Origin: Hoeflea phototrophica DFL-43
Lineage (GTDB): Bacteria > Pseudomonadota > Alphaproteobacteria > Rhizobiales > Rhizobiaceae
DNA: 64,000 nucleotides
Assembly (NCBI RefSeq): GCF_000154705.2
Contig: NZ_CM002917.1
Location: 3,793,853-3,857,852 of the forward strand
Direction of reading: 5' to 3'
Part shown: one piece after another, positions 10,794 through 22,451 of the stretch
How the letters are laid out: each line of letters opens with the position of its first letter
Numbering within the stretch: the first letter of the stretch is position 1
The notes under the pieces: generated by a model
What the model was told of the DNA's origin: nothing
Databases searched by the model: none
The model's input: the letters and a program-made list of their open reading frames with translations, nothing else
Made by a program: the position numbers and the translations under genes

Positions 10794-10945
10794 GGCCCGG
10801 ACGCCGGTCGAACCAGCGCATCGAAGCAAGGGAATTTGAGGAGATAAGTGCGACCCACGGCAGCCGATGGATTTTTTCGATCCCGGGAACCTACAACGTA
10901 GGTGGGCGCCATATGTCCGGGCCCACGGGCCCGGTCAGGGACAGC
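10790..10945 (-). ncRNA. ssrS: 6S RNA candidate
   Basis: Reading the minus strand, a segment of about 155 nt directly downstream of zapA has 6S features: a long closing stem formed by GGCCCGGAC (10924-10916 region) and GTCCGGGCC (10802-10794), the central GCCCACCTACGTTGTAGG hairpin followed by TTCCCGGGATC, and a large poorly paired interior. 6S RNA mimics an open promoter and sequesters housekeeping RNA polymerase. In alphaproteobacteria its gene typically sits between zapA and the folate cyclo-ligase gene. A possible -10 (TAATAG, minus strand, 10962-10957) fits a start near 10950. The ends are approximate. Confidence 0.65.
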
Positions 10946-11057
10946 TCCCTTAGGATCTATTAAGGCCCCGGGGATTGTGTATCCTGTCGAGAAGCGCAGA
11001 TCGCATCCTGTATATAGAGCCGACACGCCCCGAACGCCAGACGGTCGTCAATGATAA

Positions 11058-21323: not shown

Positions 21324-21509
21324 ATGTTTGCCGATGATGACATGCCCAAGCCCAAGAAACTCCATGAGATAGGCTGTGACCTGACCTTTCTGTCCGCCGG
21401 CGATCTGGATGAACGAATCACACTGCTCAAAAATGAAATTGCCCGCCTTGAAGCGGACAAGGCGGCCAAAACATCAAGCCGCAAGGCGGCCGAGAACTTT
21501 TTCCGATAG
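21324..21509 (+). CDS. DUF1192 protein
   Basis: The 61-residue protein matches the DUF1192 family of small alphaproteobacterial proteins: CDLTFLSAGDLDERITLLKN followed by EIARLEADKAAK, which is a short coiled coil. It is cytosolic and probably acts by binding another protein. It is divergent from the quinone oxidoreductase gene, an arrangement common in Rhizobiales. Role unknown. Confidence 0.8.
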   Translation: MFADDDMPKPKKLHEIGCDLTFLSAGDLDERITLLKNEIARLEADKAAKTSSRKAAENFFR

Positions 21510-21554
21510 AAATAAATTAGCAACACCAAACACTTAAATATAAAGCGATTTCTG

Positions 21555-21592
21555 TTAAGCTCCAGTTAAGCTTTACAAGTGTTTACTATACA
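21555..21592 (+). promoter_or_regulatory. CtrA-type promoter for a small RNA
   Basis: TTAAGCTCCAGTTAA (21555-21569) is a perfect TTAA-N7-TTAA CtrA box. Its second half sits where a -35 element belongs, 17 bases before the -10-like TATACA (21587-21592), the usual geometry of CtrA-activated promoters. No protein gene follows before the terminator at 21664-21691, so the transcript is likely noncoding. CtrA binding is inferred from the match. Confidence 0.6.
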
Positions 21593-21596
21593 CATC

Positions 21597-21691
21597 CAGA
21601 CATTCTGGATTTGACAGTTTGACGATTGGTCACACTGTTTGACGCCTCCCTGTTAAACTCTTGAGAGCCGCTTCTGCGGCTCTTTTTTTTT
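21597..21691 (+). ncRNA. Candidate CtrA-controlled small RNA
   Basis: Between the CtrA-type promoter and a strong terminator lies about 95 nt with clear RNA-like structure: a 7-base-pair hairpin ATCCAGA-CAT-TCTGGAT at 21594-21610 (at or near the start), an imperfect hairpin at 21615-21637 (CAGT/ACTG and TGAC/GTCA pairs), then an unpaired segment with CCTCCC (21645-21650), then the terminator stem. Unpaired CCUCC-like segments in rhizobial small RNAs pair with ribosome-binding sites. No reading frame of note is present. I cannot tell whether it matches a named RNA such as EcpR1 or GspR. Confidence 0.55.
21664..21691 (+). terminator. Intrinsic terminator (small RNA candidate)
   Basis: An 8-base-pair stem AGAGCCGC/GCGGCTCT with a TTCT loop is followed by nine T residues, one of the strongest intrinsic terminators in the window. 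The upstream protein gene (DUF1192) ends 155 bases earlier, beyond a separate promoter, so it more likely ends the small RNA. Confidence 0.85.
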
Positions 21692-21801
21692 GGAAAATTC
21701 CAAGAAACGACTTGTCCCACAGGGCCATTTTTCCTGCTTTGAAACAGAAAAAAGCCAGACCCGCCCGTGCCGCGGGCGGCGCGCTGGCGGCGGTTCTGAC
21801 G

Positions 21802-21817
21802 TTAACCCTTTCTTAAC
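21802..21817 (+). promoter_or_regulatory. CtrA box upstream of DUF1465
   Basis: TTAACCCTTTCTTAAC matches TTAA-N7-TTAAC exactly, 116 bases before the chosen DUF1465 start. The stretch between the small RNA terminator and the gene (21692-21932) holds no other gene, so this box probably controls DUF1465, positively or negatively. No convincing -10 could be placed. Confidence 0.55.
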
Positions 21818-21932
21818 AATGCTCTTGCCGCCCGTGCTGCAAATGGGCAGAGTAGTTTCACACACAAGCCGGACACAACGTCCAGCGACCTGCCGACAGG
21901 CAACGTATTTTGTAATGAGGATCTCGCGGCAC

Positions 21933-22451
21933 ATGACTGATACCAGCCTCAACACCGTCAATCTCGCGGACCGGATGGCCAATTCGGGACAGTTCAAGGC
22001 ACTCTACGCCGAGGGAATGGCGCTGGTCGAGGAAACCGCGAACTACCTCGATGGCCCGGGCCGCACCGCTTCCAAGGCTCTGCCACGCCTCGCCGCTGTT
22101 CTTTATGCAGCTGAATCAATGCGCCTTACCACCCGGCTTATGCAGATGGCGTCATGGCTGCTGTTGCAGCGCGCGGTGAACAATGGCGAGATGAACCGCG
22201 ATCAAGTTGTTGCGGAAAAGAACAAGGTCCGCCTCGACAGCTTCAATTGCGACCGCAACGCACCCGGCTGGGCAGAACTGCCCGAAGCCTTCCGTGACCT
22301 CGTCGAACATTCGTTGCGCATCCAGAACCGTGTCGCCATTCTTGATCGCGAGATCTATCGCTCGAATGAGACCCCGACACTTCGCCCGGACAATGAGAAC
22401 TCTGTTCAGGCGCAACAGAACCTTCTTCAGACAGCTTTTGCCAAGCGCTGA
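21933..22451 (+). CDS. DUF1465 family protein
   Basis: From the ATG at 21933 (MTDTSLNTVNLADRMANSGQ) this 172-residue protein matches DUF1465, an alphaproteobacterial helical family. Features include FKALYAEGMALVEETANYLD, ESMRLTTRLMQMASWLLLQRA and DREIYR. An AGGA site lies about 10 bases upstream; an in-frame ATG at 21915 lacks one. The CtrA box at 21802 suggests cell-cycle control. A strong terminator follows 60 bases after the stop. Biochemical role unknown. Confidence 0.88.
   Translation: MTDTSLNTVNLADRMANSGQFKALYAEGMALVEETANYLDGPGRTASKALPRLAAVLYAAESMRLTTRLMQMASWLLLQRAVNNGEMNRDQVVAEKNKVRLDSFNCDRNAPGWAELPEAFRDLVEHSLRIQNRVAILDREIYRSNETPTLRPDNENSVQAQQNLLQTAFAKR

Follow-up and report, generated by a model that had tools for sequence, protein, structure and literature searches.

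The DUF1192–rcdA intergenic region

The window, by which we mean the whole 64-kb stretch of Hoeflea phototrophica DFL-43 DNA that was analysed, contains a small RNA gene (21592..21690, plus strand) lying between two protein genes of the same orientation. The upstream neighbour encodes a DUF1192 protein of 61 aa (21324..21509; Pfam PF06698, 75.7 bits). The downstream neighbour (21933..22451) had been listed in an earlier note on this DNA as a DUF1465 gene, which is correct, but its identity had been missed. The protein matches PF07323 with 194.1 bits and the RcdA structure 3ctw of the PDB with an E value of 1.6e-29; some of its relatives carry names such as 'protease adaptor protein RcdA' or 'regulator of CtrA degradation', and the closest ones among the matches listed are from Hoeflea (92%; 85% in a second search). 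Judged by these matches, the DUF1465 protein is RcdA, the adaptor involved in the degradation of CtrA. The rcdA gene is followed by a gene for an L31 protein. On the other side, a 6S RNA gene (RF00013, 83.4 bits) is found on the minus strand at 10848-11005, and the small RNA gene lies 10.6 kb beyond it on the plus strand.

Two perfect copies of the CtrA box TTAA-N7-TTAA are present in the 64 kb where 0.04 would be expected; none of 100 shuffled sequences had as many as two, and both are located in this single intergenic region. The copy at 21555..21569 had been described exactly, while the second one at 21802..21816, upstream of rcdA, went unmentioned. Counted from the start of the RNA model, the first box extends from −37 to −23 and overlaps the −35 region, as had been proposed, and this placement is conserved in relatives. 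It is the geometry of a CtrA-activated promoter: in known CtrA promoters, this is the activating position. The −10 element had to be reassigned. The hexamer TATACA first put forward does occur 17 nt past the box (21587-21592) but is not conserved; relatives show ATTACT-like letters at −10 to −5 instead (54–85% per column in 79 loci fetched with RcdA, weak in 108 order-level loci; both sets are described below), and the corresponding letters in the window are TTTACT at 21582..21587.

The start of the RNA is estimated to within a few nucleotides. A 7-bp hairpin (21594..21610) is followed by an imperfect second one (21613..21639), both supported by the predicted fold and by covariation in the family, and the RNA ends with an intrinsic terminator (21663..21691) consisting of a 9-bp stem (21663-21684) and a run of nine T residues (21683-21691). 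These three elements are present as originally described, and a scan of the plus strand from 21400 to 22000 found the sRNA terminator as the sole one. The anti-Shine–Dalgarno-like motif CCTCCC (21645..21650) is also there; it had been thought unpaired but is predicted to form a 6-nt loop closed by a weak 5-bp stem (21640-21655). In two core Rhizobiaceae RNAs that we folded (L187 and L154), the corresponding stretch is single-stranded. The RNA region is far more stable than its shuffled versions: two foldings gave z scores of −6.05 and −6.72, and in neither did any of 200 shuffles equal its stability. As the earlier note had stated, no reading frame separates box and terminator, at least on the plus strand and for frames of 60 aa or more. 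Its proposal of an RNA of roughly 95 nt with a CtrA-type promoter holds: this is a conserved small RNA gene of about 95–100 nt, the RNA of the window measuring ~98 nt.

Membership in RF02356 and conserved RNA structure

The RNA had been left without a name. A cmscan search matches it to the Rfam family RF02356 (BjrC1505) with 58.7 bits, above the curated gathering score of 50, from 21548 to 21689 and over positions 1-140 of the 140 in the model. Passing the gathering score along the full model, and with no clear difference from BjrC1505, the RNA is by this match a member of the family. However, the Rfam model also spans some 44 promoter-like positions. These first positions (21548-21591 in the window) lie before the likely RNA start, hold the CtrA box with the consensus UUuA-N7-UUaa and involve many predicted pairs that are non-standard in the window sequence, from which we infer that they are CtrA-type promoter DNA and not RNA. 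The start of a promoter-free model of 95 positions, called R1, served to anchor the box positions; R1 matches the window at 21592-21689 with 85.9 bits (E 2.1e-15), the window itself being one of its rows.

Three other assignments were rejected, all below their thresholds: SorY (27.1 bits against a gathering score of 111), mmgR/suhB (20.9 bits against 41) and a CRISPR repeat. The 3′ part of the RNA (21612-21697), with CUCCCUGUU and the terminator, aligns weakly with SorY and mmgR/suhB, and in the alignment CUCCCUGUU followed by a terminator is common to SorY and the window RNA. Perhaps this represents a 3′ module that several alphaproteobacterial sRNAs have in common.

BjrC1505 reportedly received its name from Madhugiri in 2012, and its RNA is said to be more abundant under stress in B. 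japonicum. In the literature searched, mostly open-access, BjrC1505 appears in one paper, as a table entry; we found there no function for RF02356, no link of the family to CtrA and, searching by phrase, no reports of CtrA-controlled sRNAs.

The search for relatives with a covariance model, which the earlier note had recommended, found the RNA throughout the order. RF02356 matches 166 of the 199 genomes that were sampled from the order, and in 139 the score exceeds the cut-off; 162 of the 166 have one match and 4 have two. Within the family it matches 120 of 151 genomes (85 over the cut-off), and at the level of the class 30 of 289 (14 over the cut-off), these 30 including three of the order's own genomes (G000, G082 and G117). 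The 14 control genomes, Caulobacter vibrioides among them, gave no RF02356 match, and no relative turned up in the plasmid and viral collections. Second, weaker matches in two genomes (L061 and L093) are situated away from rcdA, L093 being without a CtrA box.

Conservation of the structure was evaluated in an alignment of 89 rows, the window plus 88 sequences hand-picked for spread from 136 listed references, with both CTCCCTGTT and the box required for entry. Of its 1688 cells 95.0% are paired, and 19 of the 20 pairs have double-sided changes; not one of 500 shuffles reached any of five measures, and structures slid along the alignment paired in only 33–52%. In hairpin 1 all six pairs counted have double-sided changes and 98.2% of cells are paired; the corresponding values are 6 of 6 and 88.2% for hairpin 2 and 7 of 8 and 97.7% for the terminator helix. 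Applied alone to the whole alignment, RNAalifold returned a structure of 11 pairs that was limited to hairpin 1 and the terminator and had a small covariation term; hairpin 2 was entered into the consensus structure by hand from the sequences. Twelve core Rhizobiaceae rows possess a different hairpin 2, in which each of the outer five pairs forms in 12 of 12 and the sixth in none; in the same rows TCTCCCTGTTTTACC replaces GCCTCCCTGTTA. On this comparison of sequences, the hairpins and the terminator are kept by covariation among relatives.

The invariance of CTCCCTGTT within the alignment is a product of selection since the motif was required for entry; the count to go by is 195 of 220 loci, a total that includes the window's own locus (L001) and one repeat (L134, identical to L033). 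Thirty-two of the 220 loci failed the combined filter for CTCCCTGTT and the box, and R1 matched 25 of 25 and 6 of 7 of them. The distance from the box to CTCCC is 84–98 nt in 181 of 188 loci.

The CtrA box and rcdA among relatives

The order-level loci number 110 and represent 108 of the 166 genomes with a match; one locus (L022) was left out because it duplicates L043. At least seven of the eight box letters precede the RNA in 101 of 108 loci, 48 of them perfect, and in 87 of these 101 the box starts at −38 to −36 of the R1 start. It is absent in 7 of the 108, and one further locus was cut. Because the order-level loci had been found with the Rfam model that holds the box, a second set was built from RcdA alone. 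It comprises 80 stretches, the best of 585 related ones, of which most are from Rhizobium-type genera and four from Stappia or Oricola. With R1 the RNA is detected in 79 of these best 80, at scores of 52 bits or more, the other locus (L209) being cut 123 nt upstream of rcdA. A box of at least 7/8 letters is present in 75 of the 79 (53 perfect) at −38 to −35, compared with 6 of 9325 control windows, and is absent in four (L185, L211, L212 and L216). Sixteen of the 79 are rows of the R1 alignment that had been chosen with the box, so that R1 matches there by construction. Box, hairpins and terminator, on whose preservation in relatives the earlier note had staked its proposal, are thus conserved across the order.

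The distribution of the second, rcdA-proximal box is different. Among the RcdA-fetched loci (from the best 80 of 585) 76 of 79 have a perfect box 80–200 nt before rcdA. In 100 order-level loci, the interval between the RNA and RcdA contains a perfect box in 5 and one of at least 7/8 letters in 21, the latter figure being 28 of 1708 for control regions of equal length; in their sRNA promoter segment, these 100 loci show 44 perfect boxes and 93 of at least 7/8 letters. By the counts in both sets, the sRNA box is order-wide and a separate rcdA box occurs mainly in Rhizobiaceae-type loci.

RcdA is encoded downstream of the RNA, on the same strand and within 1.5 kb, in 100 of the 110 order-level loci. 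DUF1192 is found upstream on the same strand in at least 75 of 110, a lower bound because the profile was grown from one protein. RcdA was not detected at ten loci (L040, L041, L052, L053, L054, L061, L079, L082, L083 and L093), two of them, L061 and L093, being the second match in a genome and L079 sitting close to the end of its contig. Four of the ten, from genomes in which the check described next found no DUF1465, were read and all carry the box, which is perfect in L053 and L054 and 7/8 in L082 and L083.

DUF1465 was then looked for in 14 genomes, which are not a random sample since they were chosen either because no RcdA had been seen next to a copy of the RNA or as members of the same genera, the own genome serving as a positive. 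Seven of the 14 are without DUF1465, all with an RF02356 match: four belong to one genus (G121, G198, G150 and G050), two to another (G017 and G131), and the last is G120. The absence is least certain for G120, where 524 nt of contig remain beyond the RNA; the RF02356 match of G050 is weak (E 3.3e-6), and G121, G198, G150 and G050 show 4–9% contamination. In G198 the RNA is carried by a 5.4-Mb contig, and a nearby ORF resembles the L31 protein by eye. DUF1465 is present in the other seven genomes: next to a copy of the RNA in G000, G024, G097 and G087, and on a different contig from the RNA in G007, G009 and G016.

The literature on rcdA transcription bears on this arrangement. ChIP-seq in S. 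meliloti detected CtrA binding at the rcdA promoter, yet according to the same report depleting CtrA had no effect on rcdA (PMC4433202), as would be expected if the site serves another transcript too; the rcdA-proximal box could, on the other hand, explain this peak alone. For rcdA of agrobacteria (atu3742), PMC10469942 gives several start sites in each of the three lineages and, upstream, possible sites for CtrA. CtrA control of rcdA is described in PMC2877005 as conserved in one genome cluster, and going by the box counts above this prediction may, outside the Rhizobiaceae, rest on the sRNA box.

Known small RNAs and the possible role of the window RNA

In S. meliloti, 6S RNA (SmelC667) is mapped to 2972090-2972252 on the minus strand (PMC7143759), and SmelC671/sm84 (SMc06875), a transcript of 100 nt for which no predicted promoter motif is given in these listings, to 2986421-2986520 on the plus strand (PMC7143759, PMC2873474). 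SmelC671 thus lies 14.2 kb beyond an opposite-strand 6S gene where the window has 10.6 kb, and four Ensifer/Sinorhizobium records have 6S and the sRNA in the same order and on the same strands as the window, 12–17 kb apart on one contig. Given this common order and strandedness in S. meliloti, the four records and the window, SmelC671/sm84 is probably the S. meliloti counterpart of the window RNA, an identification based on position and length. SmelC671 has been reported as broadly spread in the Rhizobiales, and its relative in R. etli is listed as ReC71 (PMC3927594).

The earlier note had suggested a comparison with EcpR1 and GspR, which a 2020 review presents as the two cell-cycle-related trans-sRNAs of S. 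meliloti (PMC7143759). EcpR1 (SmelC291), likewise a rhizobial small RNA, with cell-cycle targets, is excluded by its locus: according to that review it is ppGpp-induced and its gene, at 1.41 Mb, is flanked by divK-pleD and rpmG, whereas the neighbours in the window are DUF1192 and rcdA. GspR (SmelC775), a rhizobial sRNA acting on ctrA, comes from the SMc03844-SMc03845 locus, is reported only in Sinorhizobium/Ensifer, measures ~143 nt and has no known promoter signature. It maps to 3.51 Mb as against 2.99 Mb for the positional counterpart SmelC671, and from the locus it is very unlikely that the window RNA, with its neighbours DUF1192 and rcdA, is GspR. In mechanism, the window RNA may resemble CcnA of Caulobacter crescentus, for which a predicted CtrA site, a C-rich CCCC loop and pairing near the ctrA and gcrA start codons are described (PMC8959179). 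CcnA differs in being encoded at the replication origin, and Caulobacter vibrioides lacks an RF02356 match; likened by mechanism, CcnA would be a working precedent for the mode of action of the window RNA.

Target prediction with the CCUCCC segment, also recommended at the outset, led to no conserved target. In the own genome CAGGGAGG before an ATG gives 26 rows at 25 sites, against 2 for the pattern read backwards. Reading by eye the first 70 residues after these sites, we recognised no cell-cycle gene, and duplex energies did not discriminate between the candidates. Three near-identical integrase-like frames of the own genome (L234, L240 and L248) match CAGGGAGG-ATG, the match lying, by eye, probably inside a longer coding frame. 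In 34 of 61 genomes ACAGGGAGGC is found before an ATG; 30 such loci were fetched, of which 27 were readable and 14 had frames of at least 60 aa, no two of them alike at E 1e-4. The complement of the C-rich motif was seen by eye in none of the 10 readable gcrA leaders (of 16 loci).

The position of the RNA invites the question of whether it acts in cis, as a leader or attenuator whose transcription would start at the CtrA box and whose terminator would set the read-through into rcdA. In 100 of 110 loci the RNA does directly precede rcdA in the same orientation, and where no box of at least 7/8 letters separates it from RcdA, as in 79 of 100 order-level loci, CtrA may act through the sRNA promoter alone. 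However, constant linkage to rcdA would be expected of an rcdA leader, and the seven of 14 picked genomes with an RF02356 match and no DUF1465 weaken the notion that the RNA is merely that: its retention in the absence of rcdA argues for a function beyond that of an rcdA leader. The conserved terminator helix, for which no alternative anti-terminator was noticed, the separate boxed rcdA promoter in 76 of the 79 RcdA-fetched loci (best 80 of 585) and the listing of the probable S. meliloti counterpart as a 100-nt transcript (PMC2873474) point in the same direction, and we consider regulation of rcdA in cis unlikely. The box might instead not be activating, either because CtrA or another factor represses from it or because it serves rcdA remotely, the RNA being a stress sRNA. 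The downstream position of rcdA is compatible with this, and so is the reported increase of BjrC1505 under stress in B. japonicum, not an obvious consequence of CtrA activity. Such a role is harder to reconcile with a box that in both locus sets lies some 37 to 23 nt before the start of the RNA and is kept at the rcdA-less loci L053 and L054, and it appears to us even less probable than regulation in cis. That box and hairpins arose by chance and are without function is refuted by the order-wide conservation and the covariation, leaving this explanation a negligible probability.

We favour a CtrA-activated, self-terminated RF02356 sRNA acting in trans via its C-rich loop, with a probability of about 0.72. 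As far as can be judged from sequence comparison, control of the sRNA by CtrA is strongly supported and base-pairing through the C-rich loop is plausible, although the C-rich motif may serve some other role. The RNA would be transcribed from a promoter with the CtrA box as its −35 region and end at its own terminator. Phosphorylated CtrA (CtrA~P), binding over the −35 region, would most likely activate it, so that the sRNA should rise late in the cycle while CtrA is active and fall once RcdA/CpdR/ClpXP have removed CtrA. The conserved C-rich loop (CCUCCCUGU) would pair in trans with the ribosome-binding sites of target mRNAs and lower their translation, and the sRNA would in this way give CtrA a post-transcriptional arm.

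While the RF02356 family was already known, its order-wide linkage with CtrA and rcdA is new as far as the literature searched is concerned. The usual presence of RF02356 at a CtrA box and before rcdA across the order suggests, from comparative sequence data, an overlooked cell-cycle RNA. We see an even chance that CtrA has an ancestral, order-wide RNA output, i.e. a CtrA-activated sRNA inherited beside rcdA, kept after loss of rcdA and silencing mRNAs in the CtrA-high phase, and that the binding of CtrA which has been ascribed to the 'rcdA promoter' of rhizobia serves in part to drive this RNA. The sRNA promoter would provide a simple explanation for the CtrA binding at the rcdA promoter of S. 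meliloti that was reported to be without effect on rcdA (PMC4433202). The fixed CtrA box places RF02356 in one of the bacterial cell-cycle circuits studied best, beside the very gene that ends the life of CtrA.
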